Positions 32,284 through 38,978 of a stretch of 56,558 nucleotides of DNA are shown in pieces. The DNA is taken from assembly GCA_001769505.1 (NCBI GenBank), contig MEOF01000022.1, positions 1-56,558 of the forward strand, given 5' to 3'. A program made the position numbers and the translations under genes. This stretch comes from Bacteroidetes bacterium GWF2_33_38 (GTDB lineage Bacteria > Bacteroidota > Bacteroidia > Bacteroidales > GWF2-33-38). How positions within the stretch are numbered: the first letter of the stretch is position 1; the number at the start of each line of letters is the position of its first letter. The notes beneath the pieces were generated by a model. It worked only from the letters and a program-made list of their open reading frames with translations. It was not told where the DNA came from and did not search any database.

Positions 32284-32360
32284 AATCGTTATTATTAAGT
32301 TATTATTCCTTCTGATTTAAATATTCGTTTTTTAATAATATACTTATGATTGTAAATTCA

Positions 32361-32783
32361 TTATATTTTTATTGTATCTGGTACATAATATTCACCATTC
32401 ATTACTTTATTAATTGTTGGAATTATTTCATTAAAAAAATTATTTTTAAAAACACAGGCTTTAAAACCCGCTTCTAATATTTCATTCAAATATGCTATTT
32501 CATATTGATTGGTTACTGCAATAATTTTCACATTTTGATATTTTGAAGTTGCCTCAAAAGTTGTTTCATATCCTCCTTTTTCTGGCATCATTAAATCCAT
32601 CAAAACAACATCTACATAAAAAATATTTTTGAGTTTTAAAAATTCAATTCCGTTAGCTGCTTCTCCAATTATTTCTGCATTGAATTCGGCTTCTAAAAAA
32701 CGTTTCATACAAATACGAAAAGCCTCACTGTCGTCAACCAAAATTATTTTGATTTTGTTTATGATGTTTTTCGTTTCTTCCAT
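32361..32783 (-). CDS. single-domain response regulator
   Basis: A 140-residue receiver domain protein with the acidic pair at 17-18 (LVDDSEAF) and the phosphoacceptor D63 in VVLMDLMMP. The switch T is in IIAVTNQY and the lysine is in KACVFKNN. It has no output domain and its sequence is closer to NarL/CheB-type receivers than to motor CheY. Next to cheW and two receptors it may take the phosphoryl group from a CheA encoded elsewhere. Its start codon is 4 bases from a -7 box. Confidence 0.87.
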   Translation of the reverse strand: MEETKNIINKIKIILVDDSEAFRICMKRFLEAEFNAEIIGEAANGIEFLKLKNIFYVDVVLMDLMMPEKGGYETTFEATSKYQNVKIIAVTNQYEIAYLNEILEAGFKACVFKNNFFNEIIPTINKVMNGEYYVPDTIKI

Positions 32784-32787
32784 AGTT

Positions 32788-32795
32788 CAAAGTTA
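32788..32795 (-). promoter_or_regulatory. -7 box TAACTTTG directly before the response regulator start
   Basis: On the minus strand TAACTTTG ends four bases before the ATG of the receiver gene. It implies a start site at the ATG itself, as in leaderless mRNAs. No -33 element is clear at 19-21 bases. Confidence 0.4.
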
Positions 32796-32860
32796 TATCA
32801 GATTGAACTATATTATATAATGGAAGAAATACAGAAAAGAGATAGTTTTCGCCACTGTTT

Positions 32861-32902
32861 GTAATGGAAAAACCCACCCTTTAAGGTGGGTTTTTCCATT
32901 AC
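32861..32902. repeat. perfect 18-bp stem palindrome, left border of V4R cassette
   Basis: GTAATGGAAAAACCCACC and its exact complement enclose a CTTTAA loop. The central 26 bases reappear as the reverse complement at 36266-36291. The A/T tracts allow it to act as a terminator in both directions, although no gene clearly ends here. Confidence 0.85.
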
Positions 32903-33043
32903 AATAAAAAAGCATACAAATATTGAAATTGTTTTTTGCCTCATTTTATTTAATATTACTTCTACCCTCTCCAACTGGAACAACTACAGGATTAAGGTTT
33001 GATATATTGATAACGCCTGCAATAACAATAGTTTCTTTACGAC

Positions 33044-33177
33044 AATACTTCGGTCAACTTTGGCAAAGTTGATTTTGTCAAATTCGTAAACATTTAATAA
33101 TCAACGACATAATTAATCTTGAATAACTTTGCCAAAGTTCTGATTATCAATGTAATATAAAAATGAACGAACCATTG
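33044..33177 (+). repeat. MITE-like dispersed repeat, copy 1
   Basis: About 134 bases share clear similarity with 39055-39190 in the same orientation, with matching blocks AATACTTCGGTCAACTTTG and GCCAAAGTTCTGATTATCAA. In the other copy the ends form a short inverted repeat, here partly decayed. It codes for nothing visible. Confidence 0.75.
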
Positions 33178-33219
33178 TTACGAACAACTTCAGAATAAAA
33201 ATACTTCGTGTCCATTTGT

Positions 33220-33248
33220 AAAAAAAATGGGGTTGTTCATAAACCCCA
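33220..33248 (-). terminator. rho-independent terminator of the V4R cassette
   Basis: On the minus strand the stem TGGGGTT/AACCCCA with a seven-base loop is followed by eight T. It lies 64 bases after the stop of the last cassette gene. Confidence 0.8.
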
Positions 33249-33311
33249 CTTTCTGATTAACTCAATAATCAGTTTGCGTATTATATTTGTATTGTTTTAA
33301 ATTTAAAAGCA

Positions 33312-33911
33312 TTAAGCTTTCAATACAATAAATTCTCCATAAGCATCACCGCATTCTATTCCTTTTGTCTGTTTGCAGGTAAAATCGTTGACTTTTTCGC
33401 CTTTTACTGAGTATTCTCCAGAATATGCAAGTGCCATAAATGCGGCACAAATTCCTTTTACCATATAAGCTTTAAACATAGACGATTTTCCTTTCATCAC
33501 AACATCTGCTTCGTAATAATCATGAGCACGAACCACTAATTTTTCACCAGGAATCAATTCTACAATTTCCGAATTTGCCCATCCCCATGCTGTTAGTATT
33601 GCAAAAGCACCATGCAATACATCTTCTACATTTTCAACCATGGGTTGAACAACTGCTTTCCATTCTTCACAGGTGATAATACCGTACCCAGTATGATATC
33701 CGCATTCTTGAGCTGCATTAACAAGAAGAGCTTCTGTAGCATCAATAATTTCATTATCAACGCTGCCTACAAGTTTTTCAGAAAATCCAATCCAGAAATC
33801 ACTAGGTAACTGATTTACAAAAACGCCAAAACCATCAATGATACCGTTTTTATCGCCTACCACCTGAATTTTTGACATGTCTTCTATTATTTTTTCTCTA
33901 TTTATAGCCAT
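33312..33911 (-). CDS. V4R-domain small-molecule-binding protein (cysteine-containing)
   Basis: The 199-residue protein has an N-terminal helical part. A C-terminal V4R (4-vinyl reductase-like) domain spans about residues 95-199. The V4R fingerprint is clear: KGICAAFMALAYSGEYSVKG, then NDFTCKQTKGIECGDAYGEF. C155, C179 and C187 match in spacing the metal-binding cysteines of the XylR/DmpR/PoxR sensory domain. This points to ligand or metal sensing, not to chlorophyll reduction. An AGGAGA Shine-Dalgarno sequence, rare in this phylum, lies seven bases before the ATG. It is followed in the operon by a paralog that lacks the cysteines. Confidence 0.8.
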   Translation of the reverse strand: MAINREKIIEDMSKIQVVGDKNGIIDGFGVFVNQLPSDFWIGFSEKLVGSVDNEIIDATEALLVNAAQECGYHTGYGIITCEEWKAVVQPMVENVEDVLHGAFAILTAWGWANSEIVELIPGEKLVVRAHDYYEADVVMKGKSSMFKAYMVKGICAAFMALAYSGEYSVKGEKVNDFTCKQTKGIECGDAYGEFIVLKA

Positions 33912-33928
33912 AATTGTGTCTCCTATTA

Positions 33929-34456
33929 TTAGTTTTTTACTACTTTAAACATTGTATATTCATCTCCTTTGACAATACTTTTTGTTTCTTCTACATGAAA
34001 AGAGTTTAACGGATTGTCAAAAATTGCACTAAACATTGCTGCCACATAACCACAGCCAATATAGTTTACGGATTTGTCATATTTGCTCCATTTTTTAATC
34101 CAACCCATTTCAATATGAGAATTTGCAGATTTTACCTCGCCCGAATATTTTCCAATAAAACACACTTCAAGAGTTCCAAGACCTATTGCACTGTAATACT
34201 GACAAGCAATTTCAATTTTATCGTCGAGACTTTCAATACCATGCTGTTTGTAATAATCTGTTAAAATTTTTAAAAAATTTTCTTCTGCCACATTTGCCAA
34301 TAATGCTGTTTTTCCTGCATCAATGGCAAGTTGTGTGTATAGTGTGGTAAAATGATGACAGTGGAAAACTATTTGAGTGTCATTAATAAAATGTCTACCT
34401 GTTTTCTGATCGAACTTATGATCTAGTACTAGTTGTATTTTTTCTAAATTTGCCAT
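33929..34456 (-). CDS. V4R-like protein lacking the metal cysteines
   Basis: The 175-residue protein ends with the same fold as its neighbour: GCGYVAAMFSAIFDNPLNSF, then EETKSIVKGDEYTMFKVV. The KGD turn of V4R is kept, but the two late cysteines are replaced, so the metal site is probably absent. The N-terminal half contains FHCHHFTTLY, a cluster with His32, Cys33, His34 and His35 that could bind a ligand. It may form a heterodimer with the cysteine-containing paralog 17 bases downstream. The ligand is unknown. Confidence 0.75.
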   Translation of the reverse strand: MANLEKIQLVLDHKFDQKTGRHFINDTQIVFHCHHFTTLYTQLAIDAGKTALLANVAEENFLKILTDYYKQHGIESLDDKIEIACQYYSAIGLGTLEVCFIGKYSGEVKSANSHIEMGWIKKWSKYDKSVNYIGCGYVAAMFSAIFDNPLNSFHVEETKSIVKGDEYTMFKVVKN

Positions 34457-34472
34457 AATATAAATAGTTTAA

Positions 34473-34661
34473 TTAATATTTTACATATTCTTTTTTAACT
34501 TCATTTAATGCTCTTTGTAGTAGATTAAATACTTCCTGAGAATCGGGCATGGTTTCGGCATTAACTCGAGTAATTCTCGTTAATATAACCAATCGCATTT
34601 CCGCTTTAAAGCCACCAAGTGCTTTTGCTTGATCAAACAAGCTTTTTAGTTGTTGAGCCAT
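34473..34661 (-). CDS. 62-residue helical protein of the V4R cassette
   Basis: The short protein (MAQQLKSLFDQAKALGGFKA, ending KKEYVKY) is predicted to be two to three amphipathic helices. It has no cysteine, signal peptide or membrane segment. It lies 16 bases before the V4R-like gene in the same operon. No family was recognised. Size and position suggest a partner or regulator of the V4R proteins. Confidence 0.7.
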   Translation of the reverse strand: MAQQLKSLFDQAKALGGFKAEMRLVILTRITRVNAETMPDSQEVFNLLQRALNEVKKEYVKY

Positions 34662-34716
34662 ATTATTTAATATTTAAGTGAATAATTATTTCTAATTGCA
34701 ATGCTGTTAATAGAAA

Positions 34717-34725
34717 CCTCCTTTC
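34717..34725 (-). promoter_or_regulatory. strong Shine-Dalgarno-like GAAAGGAGG without a nearby start codon
   Basis: On the minus strand GAAAGGAGG follows the stop codon of the 87-residue gene by five bases. The ATG of the 62-residue gene is more than 50 bases away and no ATG, GTG or TTG lies at a normal distance. It could serve an internal function such as ribosome holding or could be chance. Confidence 0.35.
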
Positions 34726-34729
34726 TTTC

Positions 34730-34993
34730 TCATAAGTTTTGAAATATTTCAATAGCTTTTTCATTTTTCATCCATATTCTGATAGAATAATTTCCCTCAA
34801 CGCCTTTTATATTCATTACGTCTTCTATTTCAAAACTGAAAAACGGTCGGGCAAATGTAGGGTAATATTTAAGCTCCCCTTTTTCTTTTAATAAAAGGAT
34901 GTATTCTTTCGTAATTTGTTCATCAAGAAATAATTCTTTTATAAAAGAACCATCAAAACAATCTTCAATATTTTTTATTTCAATAATTTTCAT
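34730..34993 (-). CDS. 87-residue partner protein of the cysteine desulfurase
   Basis: A small mixed alpha/beta protein with one cysteine (C12 in IEDCFDGSF) and a striking block FARPFFSFEIEDVMNIKG followed by VEGNYSIRIWM. I do not know the family. Its start overlaps the stop of the desulfurase gene as ATGA, so the two are translationally coupled. Small proteins in this position often accept sulfur or modulate the enzyme; here that is inference and the single cysteine is the obvious candidate. Confidence 0.7.
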   Translation of the reverse strand: MKIIEIKNIEDCFDGSFIKELFLDEQITKEYILLLKEKGELKYYPTFARPFFSFEIEDVMNIKGVEGNYSIRIWMKNEKAIEIFQNL

Positions 34994-36144
34994 TTGTTCA
35001 ATTCAGAAATAATCTGTTTAATAGTTGCTATGAATATATCTATTTCCTCAAACGTATTAAAATATGATAAGCTTACTCGAACATTTCCTTCTGGCATACT
35101 TTTAATATCCTGGTGAATTAACGGGGCACAATGCAATCCCGATCTGGTAATGATATTAAATGAATGTTGGAGAATATAGGAAACATCTGCTGGCGAAACA
35201 TTTTTTATATTAAATGCTAAAACCGATAAGTGAGTATTTTTTTTGTTTACCCCATACAATATTATTTCAGGAAATTTTTCTAGCCCACAAATAAGTCTTT
35301 CATACAATTTGTTTTTTTTATTTGCAATTTTCTCAATCCCTGTAAACAAAATAAAATCCAATCCAATTTTCATAGATAAAATTCCTATAACGTTTGGCGT
35401 ACCCGCTTCATAATACATTGGAATGTTTTCAGGTTGAAATAAATAGTCGCTACGCACACCAGTGCCACCAACTTTTAATGGTTTTAACCTTAAACCGTCT
35501 TTAATGTACAAGCCACCTATTCCTTGTAATCCAAATAGGTTTTTGTGACCCGTGAAACAAAGTATATCAATATCATTTTCTATTACATCTATTTCAATAG
35601 CTCCTATTGATTGTGAGGCATCAACAATAAACAGACAATTATTCTTATGTGCTATTTCAGATATTTTTTTAATATCCTGCACCGTTCCTGTCACATTTGA
35701 ACAATGATTGATAATAATTACTTTAGTGTCAGATTTTATTTCACTTTCAATATCTTCTGGATTAACAAAGCCATTCTCATCACAGGGAATAATAGTTAGT
35801 CGTATTTTATTTTCTTTTTCTAAAGTTTTTAATGGTCGCAATACTGAATTATGTTCTGTAGAAGATGTTATAATATGAGACTGATTATAATCAATTCCAA
35901 AGATTGCTAGATTCAAGGCTTCTGTGGCTCCAGATGTAAAAATGATATTTTGGTGTTGAGGAGAATGAATGAAATTAGCAATTAGTTTTCGAGTTTCAAA
36001 TATTATATCTCCACTATTACTTTTAAAATCACCACGATCTGTTTGACATGGAATAGCACAAAGAAATTCAGTAATTGTCTTTATTACTTGAGTAGGTTTT
36101 GGATAGCTTGTGGCCGAATTATTGAAATATATGATTTCTTTCAC
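34990..36144 (-). CDS. cysteine desulfurase family protein (TIGR01977-like)
   Basis: The 384-residue PLP enzyme of aminotransferase class V has the motif YFNNSATSYPKPTQV and then FTSGATEALNLAIFG. The PLP-lysine is in CFTGHKNLFGLQGIGGLYI and the catalytic cysteine is in RSGLHCAPLIHQ, followed by a helical end. This matches the SufS-related cysteine desulfurase family often found with selenium or sulfur carriers. It removes sulfur from cysteine as a persulfide. It is the first gene of the V4R cassette and is coupled to the 87-residue protein. It is not with suf genes. Confidence 0.9.
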   Translation of the reverse strand: MKEIIYFNNSATSYPKPTQVIKTITEFLCAIPCQTDRGDFKSNSGDIIFETRKLIANFIHSPQHQNIIFTSGATEALNLAIFGIDYNQSHIITSSTEHNSVLRPLKTLEKENKIRLTIIPCDENGFVNPEDIESEIKSDTKVIIINHCSNVTGTVQDIKKISEIAHKNNCLFIVDASQSIGAIEIDVIENDIDILCFTGHKNLFGLQGIGGLYIKDGLRLKPLKVGGTGVRSDYLFQPENIPMYYEAGTPNVIGILSMKIGLDFILFTGIEKIANKKNKLYERLICGLEKFPEIILYGVNKKNTHLSVLAFNIKNVSPADVSYILQHSFNIITRSGLHCAPLIHQDIKSMPEGNVRVSLSYFNTFEEIDIFIATIKQIISELNK

Positions 36145-36265
36145 AGAAATAAGTGTTATATTTTTAATAAGTTATTAATTCAGTTTTTTATCATACTAAG
36201 TTATTGCAAAGAAAAGGGCTAAATTATAACTGATAGTATGGTTTTTTGCCAAATACATATAACGG

Positions 36266-36295
36266 AAAACCCACCTTAAAGGGTGGGTTTTTATG
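36266..36295 (-). terminator. palindrome/terminator, right border of V4R cassette
   Basis: AAAACCCACC and GGTGGGTTTT form a ten-base stem followed by T on the right. On the minus strand it is placed to end the response regulator-histidine kinase operon. It is the exact reverse complement of the core of the palindrome at 32861-32902. Confidence 0.75.
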
Positions 36296-36355
36296 AAGTA
36301 AATGTAGTTAAAATACTGATTGAATGATGATTTGCATTAAAAGTACTTAATTTGC

Positions 36356-36988
36356 TTAAATATCAATAATTTTATTTTTTATTGAGTACAAAACTAAACT
36401 AACAGAGTTTGAACAATTTGTTTTTGTCATTATGTTAGCTCTATGCCATTTTACTGTATCAAAACTAATATTTAACTTTTCCGCAATTTGTTCATTTGTA
36501 AAACTTTCACAAATAAGTTTAATTATTTCTGTTTCTCGTTCAGATAAATTTGAAGATTTTTTTGTTGGCTTAGAATTGAATTTTGTAATTACTTTTTGAA
36601 TTAATTCTGCTGAAAACCAATTACCACCTTTTGAAACTTCGAGAATTGCATTTTTTAATTCTAAAATTCCGGCATTTTTTAGCACAAAACCTTTTGCTCC
36701 AGCTTCTAACATATTGTAATAATAGTTTTCGTCGCCAAACGATGAAAGCGTTAATACTTTAACATTTGGTTGCTTTTCAATTGCTTTTTTGGTTGCTTCA
36801 ATTCCGTCCATTTCGGGCATCGAAATATCCATTAGAATAATATCTGGCGTATGTTTGTCTAATAATTTCAAAAGCTCAATTCCAGTTGATGCTTCGGCAA
36901 TTACTTCGGCAACATTTTCAAAAGTCAATATTTTACAAAGACTTTCGCGAAACATTCGGTGGTCGTCGGCTATTATTATTTTTATCAT
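36356..36988 (-). CDS. NarL-type response regulator (REC plus LuxR HTH)
   Basis: I place the start at 36988 (MIKIIIADDHRMFRESL) because an upstream extension would read through a repeat sequence. The receiver has DD at 8-9, the phosphoacceptor D54 in ILMDISMPEMDG, the switch LTLSSFG and K in KGFVLKNAG. The LuxR helix-turn-helix (LSERETEIIKLICESFTNEQ, then IAEKLNISFDTVKWHRANIM) occupies the last 60 residues. It is downstream of, and probably paired with, the PAS histidine kinase. Targets are unknown, though the V4R cassette just beyond the terminator is a candidate. Confidence 0.92.
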   Translation of the reverse strand: MIKIIIADDHRMFRESLCKILTFENVAEVIAEASTGIELLKLLDKHTPDIILMDISMPEMDGIEATKKAIEKQPNVKVLTLSSFGDENYYYNMLEAGAKGFVLKNAGILELKNAILEVSKGGNWFSAELIQKVITKFNSKPTKKSSNLSERETEIIKLICESFTNEQIAEKLNISFDTVKWHRANIMTKTNCSNSVSLVLYSIKNKIIDI

Positions 36989-37029
36989 TTTTATAAAATA
37001 GTTGATAGGTTTATTGGTTGAAATGAAAT

Positions 37030-37125
37030 TTATTAAGTTGTCATTTCGAATTTCTTGTGAGAAATCTATATTAATCAAATTCCTATAGATTTCTCAATCG
37101 CTATCGCTCATTTCGAAATGACAGC
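37030..37125. repeat. dispersed hairpin repeat before the response regulator
   Basis: GTCATTTCGAATTTCTTGTGAGAAATCT (two parts shown: GTCATTTCGAATT and GTGAGAAATCT) is followed by its imperfect inverted copy AGATTTCTCAATCG..CATTTCGAAATGACAG. It belongs to the same family as 24793 and 31609. It lies between kinase and regulator genes, where it may act as an attenuator or mRNA processing hairpin. Confidence 0.6.
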
Positions 37126-37160
37126 CAGTTCTGCACTCTTCATTTTTTCACTTTTCAAAA

Positions 37161-38978
37161 TTACATCATATTTTTGTGCATTTTCAAATTAAAAATAATG
37201 ATAGTTCCTTTTTCGAGTGTGCTTTTAATTTCCATAAAACCATTTATCGATTTTATTCTACTTTGCATATTTAGCAATCCTATTCCAGGGTGTTTTGAAA
37301 GTGTTTCATTTACATCGAATCCTTTTCCATTATCAGAATATTGTACTTTTAAAAATTCATTTTCGGGTTGAATATTTATTGAAATTTTAGATGCTTGTGC
37401 GTGTTTTAATGTATTGTTTATACATTCGCATATCACTCTGTATGCAATGGTTTCGGCATTTTTGTCGAAGCGTTCAATTTTTTTGGAAACAATTTCTATT
37501 TCAATCTCTGATGTTTCTTTAATTTTTTCGGCATAGGTTTTTGTTGCATCAACCAAACCATAGTTTTGCAAAACGTGTGGACTTAATTTGAATGATATTT
37601 CACGAACTGTTCGAGCCGATTCGTCAATAAGTTTTTCTATATCTTTCAGGATTTCAGATTTGTCGAGCTTTGCATTTGGCATTCCAAGCCACTGCACATA
37701 CATTTTAGTTGCCGAAAGTAAAGGACCAATTCCATCGTGAAGTTCTTGCGAAAAGTGCATTCGTTCTTTTTCTTCGGTTTCAATTACGTTGCGAAGTATT
37801 TGTCTTTCGAAAGATTTTCGTTCCGAAATATCGCGAACAATTACTAAAACTGCATTTTCGTTTTCATATTTCGTTAATTTAGATTTTAGTTCAACATGAA
37901 TATTTTTTTTGCTTTTTGAAATTATTTCAACTTCAATTGATTCTATTTCATTTTTGGAAAATAATTGTTGGGCTCTTTCAGTTAAAAGAGGAATGTATTT
38001 TTTATCTACAAACTCAAAAATATGTTTGCCAAGCCCATCTTCTAATTTGTAATCGAGTATCTTTAATAATGTTTCGTTTACATTTAAAATGGTATAATTC
38101 TTATCTATAATTATAATACCATCGGAACTTGAATTAAAAATATTTCTAAATTTAAATTCACTTTGCTGTAGCGTATTTTCGTGTTGTTTTCGCTCTGATA
38201 TATCGCGAGTAACGCCCTGAAGTTCAACTAATTTATTATTTCCATCATAACTGGGGCTCAGAATGATTTCTCCCCATTTTGTTAACCCATTTTTACATAA
38301 ATATTCTAACTCAAATTTTGCAAAATATTTCTCAGTTTTATTATTTAGAATTTTTGATAATTCATTTTTAAATACTTCTGTTGATTCCTTTGTAAAACGG
38401 TTATCGATATTTTGATGCAAATATTCCTCGGTGGTAAATCCAATAAATTGTTCGATAGAAGGCGTAACATAAATCCTATTTCCCTCCAAATCTAACACCC
38501 ATATAACGTCGAAAATATTTTCTGAAATTAAACGAAATCGAGCTTCTTTTTTTTCTAAGGCTAATTCGCTTAGTTTTCTGTCGGTAATATCCCGAATAAT
38601 TGATATTATTTTATCTTCTCCAAACTTTTTTATTCTTGCTTCAAATATTTTTGTATCGTTTGTATAAGGAATCGGAAGTTCATATTCAACAATTTGCAAT
38701 TCATTTGTTGAAATTGTTTTTTCAATATAAAAATTTAACTTTTCCGCTATTTTTTGAGGGAAAATATCGGATATTTTTTTCCCAATAAATTGTTCTGGTT
38801 TTAAATATAAAAGAGTCTCATCTTGTGAATAAAATTCTAAAAAAATACCATTTATATCGTGTACAAAAATTAAATCAGGACTTGTTTCTATTAGTGCTTT
38901 TTTATTCTTGCTGATTTCTTCAATAGCTACTTTAGCGTTTAACTTAGAGCTATACTTCCTTTTTCGTTTTTTGTTCAT
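37161..38978 (-). CDS. PAS-domain sensor histidine kinase (HisKA_3 type)
   Basis: A 605-residue cytosolic kinase with no membrane helix. Three PAS domains lie at about 25-140, 140-265 and 275-395, with links such as RDITDRK and RDISERK. The dimerisation and phosphoacceptor motif is MHFSQELHDGIGPLLSATKM, in which the histidine is phosphorylated. The HATPase_c domain shows ECINNTLKHAQASKI, YSDNGKGFDV, GIGLLNMQSRI and GTIIIFNL. This is the NarX/DegS-like class that pairs with NarL-type regulators, as its downstream neighbour is. PAS domains suggest redox, oxygen or small-ligand sensing. Confidence 0.92.
   Translation of the reverse strand: MNKKRKRKYSSKLNAKVAIEEISKNKKALIETSPDLIFVHDINGIFLEFYSQDETLLYLKPEQFIGKKISDIFPQKIAEKLNFYIEKTISTNELQIVEYELPIPYTNDTKIFEARIKKFGEDKIISIIRDITDRKLSELALEKKEARFRLISENIFDVIWVLDLEGNRIYVTPSIEQFIGFTTEEYLHQNIDNRFTKESTEVFKNELSKILNNKTEKYFAKFELEYLCKNGLTKWGEIILSPSYDGNNKLVELQGVTRDISERKQHENTLQQSEFKFRNIFNSSSDGIIIIDKNYTILNVNETLLKILDYKLEDGLGKHIFEFVDKKYIPLLTERAQQLFSKNEIESIEVEIISKSKKNIHVELKSKLTKYENENAVLVIVRDISERKSFERQILRNVIETEEKERMHFSQELHDGIGPLLSATKMYVQWLGMPNAKLDKSEILKDIEKLIDESARTVREISFKLSPHVLQNYGLVDATKTYAEKIKETSEIEIEIVSKKIERFDKNAETIAYRVICECINNTLKHAQASKISINIQPENEFLKVQYSDNGKGFDVNETLSKHPGIGLLNMQSRIKSINGFMEIKSTLEKGTIIIFNLKMHKNMM

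Follow-up and report, generated by a model that had tools for sequence, protein, structure and literature searches.

Among the closest described relatives of the system reported here are the XylR_N-V4R sensors PoxR, MopR and DmpR. In the accessible part of a report on DmpR, its sensory domains interlock as a homodimer, and the zinc ligands are C151, E172, C177 and C185 (PMC7264223). Cysteines of a V4R domain also act in redox sensing in MsvR, as far as the accessible text of PMC3729527 describes it, which provides a precedent for cysteine-dependent V4R signalling. Here we describe a locus of five genes, A5 to A1, on contig MEOF01000022.1 (GenBank assembly GCA_001769505.1) of Bacteroidetes bacterium GWF2_33_38; the whole stretch analysed, 56,558 nucleotides (nt) of this contig, is referred to as the window. 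With roughly even confidence, we propose that the locus is a portable cytoplasmic sensor cassette, in which a pair of V4R-type proteins (A2 and A1) would work with a small partner protein (A3) and a dedicated sulfur relay formed by a cysteine desulfurase and a second small protein (A5 and A4). The parts, V4R sensors and TIGR01977 desulfurases, are known, and as far as we have searched the assembly is undescribed: the open-licence literature yielded no paper joining 'V4R domain' with 'cysteine desulfurase' and no such cassette, most subscription papers lying outside that search.

The five genes of the window locus, with the evidence for each assignment, are as follows.

34990..36144, minus strand: A5, TIGR01977-type cysteine desulfurase, 384 amino acids (aa), GTG start (TIGR01977 score, K201/C339)
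34730..34993, minus strand: A4, 87-aa small protein with a single invariant cysteine, C12 (alignment of relatives, AlphaFold2 (AF2) model)
34473..34661, minus strand: A3, 62-aa small protein, probable signalling partner of V4R/GAF sensors (gene context, fusions)
33929..34456, minus strand: A2, 175-aa V4R-type protein with an invariant HCHH motif at residues 32-35 (Pfam V4R in relatives, homology to A1)
33312..33911, minus strand: A1, 199-aa V4R-type protein with an invariant C70 (AF2 model, Foldseek/VIA)

Transcription runs from A5 through A4, A3 and A2 to A1, and the A5 stop codon overlaps the A4 start by 4 nt (ATGA). All five same-strand open reading frames (ORFs) and the overlap had been described in an earlier, sequence-only reading of the window, and all are present. 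Among the window copies, A5 alone is recognised above Pfam/NCBIfam cut-offs.

Recurrence and gene order

Within genomes of the window's own order, the first matches were three close and two distant relatives. When a collection of genomes at species level was scanned with an A1 profile, 43 loci emerged, spread over 42 genomes and, going by record titles, about 17 phyla; their A1 relatives share 45 to 68% identity with the window A1. Because the scan relies on two short peptide patterns, these are minimum counts. Within the 43 loci, profiles detected A2 in 41, A3 in 32, A4 in 29 and A5 in 24. The two small families therefore do occur beyond this genome and together with V4R genes, contrary to the finding that would have refuted the sequence-only reading. 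A2 lies directly 5' of A1 in all 41 loci holding both, A3 directly 5' of A2 in each of the 32 loci holding A3, and A5 directly 5' of A4 wherever the two co-occur (23 loci), with a 4-nt overlap in 11 (a count that depends on script-chosen start codons). Since this order is conserved across the phyla represented in the 43 loci, we rejected the possibility that the five genes are chance neighbours.

Complete five-gene sets were found at 18 of the 43 loci, and five more carry A5, A4, A2 and A1 without A3. The position of A5-A4 relative to the V4R core varies (upstream, downstream, divergent at L053 and L056, or about 3 kilobases off at L055), and the set therefore acts like a pair of linked sub-modules. 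Contig ends are reached by several loci, such as L036 and L048, and one planctomycete genome carries A1 (L050) and A5-A4-A3-A2 (L079) on separate contigs. The A2 half of L046 was assigned by hand from the translation and then confirmed by profile. At L028 (7766-8917) a stop codon splits the desulfurase frame into two ORFs, which represents a sequence error or a decaying gene.

The two sub-modules are also apparent in co-variation. Pairwise distance matrices correlate best for A4-A5 (r = 0.76, n = 23) and A1-A2 (r = 0.73, n = 40), values that none of 2000 shuffles reached; other gene pairs gave r of at most 0.64, and the value of every pair was reached by at most 1 of 2000 shuffles, with genome kinship contributing throughout. 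L055 was excluded from all pairs, and L046 from pairs involving A2. In a tree of A1, the window protein falls within a Bacteroidota/Ignavibacteriota set (100/98) and several phyla are split; phylum labels are nonetheless more clustered than in shuffled data, with 18 changes against a mean of 25.6 (0 of 200 shuffles as low). Some transfer of the cassette between phyla is likely, judging from this tree.

The V4R pair

The AF2 model of A1 (pLDDT 87.9) finds its best Foldseek matches in the phenol-sensor domains of MopR and PoxR (E = 7.7e-6 to MopR). Comparison with PoxR by VIA gave a Z score of 17.8 and a root-mean-square deviation of 2.8 Å over 175 residues, and yeast TRAPP Bet3-family chains ranked below PoxR and MopR (Z about 12). 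A1 is thus predicted to have the V4R sensor fold of PoxR, MopR and DmpR. A2 and A1 are homologous by hhalign (probability 91.5, E = 8.7e-7), and the Pfam V4R family (PF02830) is reached by 6 of 40 A2 members at E ≤ 1 (best 1.7e-5), with no match for the window A1 or A2 and none among the matches listed for 42 A1 members. Our V4R call therefore derives from the Pfam matches of the A2 family and from the likeness of the A1 model to V4R sensor domains. On these grounds the earlier assignment of two V4R-type proteins stands, without extending to a Pfam V4R match in the window copies themselves. Sequence searches of the PDB returned no credible relatives of A1 or A2, and neither A1 (199 aa) nor A2 (175 aa) matched an AAA+ or DNA-binding domain.

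Both proteins have conserved cysteines and histidines: in alignments of relatives, A1 keeps C70 in 44 of 44 and H73 in 43 of 44 sequences, and A2 keeps HCHH in 41 of 41. At the positions of DmpR C177 and C185, A2 has S160 (38/41) and T168 (S or T in 37/41), and A1, via the A1-A2 alignment, has G184 and G192. This check of the zinc site covers the C177/C185 pair, aligned through V4R sequences that keep it, namely the first half of L013 (independent E value 1.5e-15) and a V4R protein of L046 (independent E value 0.006). With the pair lost in both A1 and A2, metal sensing through the known V4R zinc site was rejected, and the metal control envisaged in the sequence-only reading is not supported in this form.

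A2 and A1 form a single chain in L046, and distant double-V4R chains occur in L014, L096, L097 and L013 (the last with a frame break). These fusions support the view that A2 and A1 may form a heterodimer. In the distant double-V4R chains, the positions aligned with A2 C33 and A1 C70 are also cysteines, and the histidines are not all kept; in L096 (4597-5874) and L097 (5774-7093) the first half reads HCHHYN or HCNHYN and the second half CGFYT, each gene lying behind one of unknown function. The far end of the L097 stretch contains a partial A5-like match (E = 2.9e-7). A 99-aa ORF adjoining the double-V4R gene of L013 was considered as an A4 and rejected (hhalign probability 2.7%, E = 0.017). 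A search for A2 in 390 genomes of the window's phylum recovered it from four, two of these matches being the distant double-V4R chains.

The desulfurase and its small partner

A5 scores 424.4 bits against TIGR01977 (cut-off 377), in line with the family named in the sequence-only reading. It falls under the cut-offs for SufS (268.3 versus 475.1), IscS (152.9 versus 643.2), NifS (184.4 versus 530.75) and SclA (342.7 versus 525); an ordinary SufS or IscS was rejected on these scores, and the desulfurase is, as had been supposed, something other than a plain member of either family. Among its cassette relatives K201 is kept in 25 of 25 and C339 in 24 of 24, and we take K201 to be the pyridoxal phosphate lysine and C339 the catalytic cysteine. 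The window genome contains nine other TIGR01977 matches, all scoring lower (the top two at 254 and 131 bits), which we take to include the housekeeping desulfurases. Because of these nine further matches, A5 is likely to be an extra enzyme.

A4 has a cysteine, C12, that is invariant in 30 of 30 relatives, and we infer that it may act as a sulfur carrier for A5. Its AF2 model (pLDDT 91.9) has a borderline likeness to the halves of TATA-binding proteins (best Z 8.4, near the tool's 'common' range) that gives no functional lead. A PDB sequence search found no credible relatives of A4, and comparison of the family with Pfam gave scattered weak matches and no family.

A4 was found in 31 of the 42 A1 genomes. 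Of 395 genomes from the window's phylum, 11 carry it, the window's own among them and the last three by weak or partial matches; in a second phylum the count is 2 of 247. A1 is present in one of the ten other A4-bearing genomes of the window's phylum; since most of them are without A1, A4 probably also works elsewhere. Where the V4R-linked A4 of a genome, or its sole A4, has no neighbouring A5, the genome contains an above-cut-off TIGR01977 match in 6 of 8 cases, compared with 3 of 11 genomes without detected A4; in G557, one of the six, the match adjoins its second A4. This difference is suggestive only.

Several A4 genes were found in other surroundings, as judged by eye. In L072 (3768-5203) and L074 (6652-8102) an A5-A4 pair set apart from V4R genes has a PheS-like gene on one side and an acyl-CoA carboxylase/biotin carrier pair on the other, and in L073 (6831-7133) an A4-family gene lies inside an apparent [NiFe]-hydrogenase and hyp maturation set. 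A role in anti-phage defence of the Dnd/Ssp kind was considered and rejected, the likeness being limited to that between A5 and the desulfurases SspA and DndA; PADLOC returned no match for A1, A3 or A4, and a weak KwaB match for A2 (E = 0.0045).

The small protein A3

The A3 family gave scattered weak matches to Pfam and no fitting family. In the window's phylum it occurs in 7 of 385 genomes: that of the window, G557 (L072, a locus that also holds A2, A1 and A4), and those of five further loci. At two of these (L105 and L106) A3 lies directly 3' of a stand-alone XylR_N-V4R protein, at two others (L107, 5866-6756; L109, 6111-6872) it is fused on the N-terminal side of a GAF domain, and at L108 it is by itself. 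A single genome of 247 in the second phylum carries A3 (L112); the two genes 3' of it (approximately 1501-2923) resemble, by eye, MglB (roadblock) and MglA (small GTPase). Because of the XylR_N-V4R neighbours, the GAF fusions and the MglB/MglA-like neighbours, A3 appears mostly to accompany sensors, and it is a probable signalling partner of V4R/GAF sensors.

Signalling neighbours

In at least 19 of the 43 loci the cassette immediately adjoins a same-strand signalling gene, as assigned by listing and clustering. Pfam searches with 20 neighbour proteins from 16 loci confirmed signalling at 15 of them and gave no match for the neighbour at L049; at L037, L049, L055 and L056 the assignment is by clustering alone. 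None was counted at the remaining 24 loci, a few of which carry signalling genes on the other strand or farther off (for example L034 and L015, by eye). Of the 59 same-strand genes no more than 600 bp from the core, 7 encode methyl-accepting chemotaxis proteins (MCPs), versus 3 of 307 others (Fisher p = 1.7e-4), using a profile built from seven of the counted MCPs. By hydropathy, a periplasmic sensor domain would not fit in five of eight MCPs from seven loci (those of L027, L046, L047, L054 and L057, of which L047 and L057 are loci without A3), and such a domain is possible in the L021 MCP and both L038 MCPs; this set leaves out the L025 MCP, which is truncated by a contig end. Ahead of A3 and the A2-A1 fusion, L046 (6016-8967) encodes an MCP lacking a sensor domain, a third V4R protein and a SpoIIE-type phosphatase; this V4R protein scores above the Pfam V4R cut-off and retains the zinc Cys pair.

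Layout of the window locus

Three further features surround the five genes.

33220..33272, minus strand: probable intrinsic terminator 3' of A1, two hairpins followed by U8 (fold of 33205-33312)
32868..32894, no strand assigned: hairpin forming the left arm of a 27-nt perfect inverted repeat (repeat search)
36266..36292, no strand assigned: hairpin forming the right arm of the same repeat (repeat search)

The single terminator proposed from the sequence was recovered as the hairpin with U8 after A1. The segment 33205-33312 folds at -20 kcal/mol (z = -3.1, matched by 0 of 200 shuffles), and a simple terminator scan reported the stem after A1 for the plus strand only. Also confirmed were the flanking two-component and chemotaxis genes, all on the same strand: the 5' flank encodes a PAS histidine kinase and a LuxR-type regulator (Pfam), and the 3' flank a receiver protein and CheW (Pfam), then two MCP-like proteins (by eye). 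These genes are set off from the cassette by 212 and 528 nt, with a hairpin on either side. The hairpins are the arms of the inverted repeat that brackets the cassette; their exact pattern occurs at three places in the genome, two of which are these arms. The repeat was rejected as a general mark of mobility, inverted repeats around other tested loci measuring at most 13 nt. Rfam gave no match in 32300-37300.

Discussion

The core idea of the sequence-only reading, an undescribed sensing module, is borne out by the recurrence of the set across phyla, the predicted sensor-type fold of A1 and the frequent signalling neighbours. We read A2 and A1 as a two-protein receptor because of the A1 fold, the A2-A1 fusions, the MCP enrichment and the occurrence of A3 beside XylR_N-V4R and GAF domains. 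In the proposed mechanism, A2 and A1 would pair as a heterodimer of V4R-type ligand-binding domains, much as the sensory domains of DmpR or the Bet3-family subunits of TRAPP are paired, and, together with A3, would relay their state to outputs adjoining the cassette or encoded elsewhere in the genome; candidate outputs are sensor-less chemoreceptors, histidine kinases, PP2C phosphatases and DUF4388/roadblock proteins. A5 would hand sulfur to the invariant cysteine of A4, the two forming a dedicated relay pair. The likeliest destination of the relayed sulfur would be a persulfide or Fe-S type group, built or refreshed on the invariant cysteines and histidines of A2 and A1, and the sensor would then respond to sulfur or redox state. 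The A5-to-A4 relay, the sulfur delivery and the nature of the signal are steps that we infer, and delivery to the V4R cysteines, plausible from co-localisation and the invariant cysteines, is the weakest of them. A narrower version, in which persulfide or cluster occupancy on A2 HCHH and A1 C70/H73 would be the signal driving taxis or kinase output and the cassette would have spread between phyla, is tentative and in our view rather doubtful.

Several observations weigh against this mechanism. A4 was undetected in 11 of the 42 A1 genomes, some of which may be incomplete bins, and, with or without A5, it occurs in genomes lacking A1. That some V4R cores were found without A4 weakens the sulfur-delivery step in particular. 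At the distant double-V4R loci A4 was not recognised and no A5 adjoins, and the cysteines equivalent to C33 and C70 are kept there; they therefore matter to the V4R pair itself and are not dependent on the sulfur pair. A signalling neighbour was counted at 4 of the 18 complete five-gene loci versus 15 of the 25 others, and at 10 of the 24 loci with A5 versus 9 of the 19 without.

Some of these data would also suit other explanations. One retains the sensor cassette and has A5-A4 make the signal, a sulfur compound or a report on cysteine supply, with the V4R pair binding this or an unrelated hydrophobic ligand non-covalently. V4R domains of the A1-type fold do bind small hydrophobic ligands such as phenol, and the MCP-adjoining V4R cores of L025, L027 and L038 have neither A5 nor A4 nearby and no A4 genome-wide, L025 and L027 being near contig ends. 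However, A4 stands beside the V4R core even without an adjoining A5 (L019, L039, L040, L044, L047 and L051), which we read as a physical rather than a metabolic link, and we consider this explanation a serious contender that is nonetheless unlikely. Less probable again is a biosynthetic set, in which A5-A4 would feed sulfur into a thio-cofactor made or carried by the V4R pair and the signalling neighbours would be incidental. Such a set would suit the 14 of 18 complete loci without a counted signalling neighbour, as well as the A4 gene in the apparent hydrogenase-maturation set and the A5-A4 pairs beside acyl-CoA carboxylase genes (L073, L072 and L074, by eye), but it is at odds with the MCP enrichment, the A3-GAF fusions, the position of A3 beside XylR_N-V4R proteins and the sensors that are the nearest folds.

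The identity of A5 bears on two further alternatives. EF_2568, a TIGR01977 member encoded beside selD, is called a probable selenocysteine lyase by Haft and Self in the accessible part of their paper (PMC2276186), and A5 might likewise be a selenocysteine lyase whose relay carries selenium; given its 342.7 bits against the 525-bit SclA cut-off, we regard this as very improbable. Hardly credible is an ordinary desulfurase beside unrelated genes: we found no point in favour of it, and the gene order conserved across phyla and the A5 scores below the SufS and IscS cut-offs both contradict it.

If the sensor-cassette mechanism is correct, it would give a function to four protein families that Pfam and NCBIfam do not recognise above cut-off in the window copies. 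V4R domains would then serve chemoreceptors and kinases as a free-standing receptor of two proteins instead of as a fused domain, and cysteine desulfurase chemistry would be tied to signal reception.

The cassette shares features with four known systems and differs from each. Like PoxR, MopR and DmpR, it would be a cytoplasmic ligand sensor, the predicted fold of A1 matching theirs over nearly its whole chain. In contrast to them, it comprises two separate homologous proteins with no AAA+ or DNA-binding domain; its V4R proteins lack the DmpR zinc Cys pair, have conserved Cys/His residues of their own, and are linked to small proteins and a desulfurase. MsvR of methanogens likewise has a V4R domain with conserved cysteines, and its DNA binding is modulated by redox state, but it has a single V4R with the DNA-binding domain on the same chain, and the accessible text describes no desulfurase or carrier (PMC3729527). 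Paired V4R-fold subunits are found in the TRAPP Bet3-family heterodimers and their prokaryotic V4R relatives, to judge from the accessible part of PMC2253512, and the likeness extends to a DUF4388-roadblock protein beside L053 (Pfam), with clustered relatives beside L055 and L056; unlike TRAPP, the cassette loci show no vesicle machinery and have the sulfur pair and bacterial signalling neighbours. Finally, A5 resembles the EF2568-type TIGR01977 desulfurases in scoring above the family cut-off, but instead of selD and molybdenum-hydroxylase genes it is partnered with A4, for which Pfam yielded no family, and with V4R genes.

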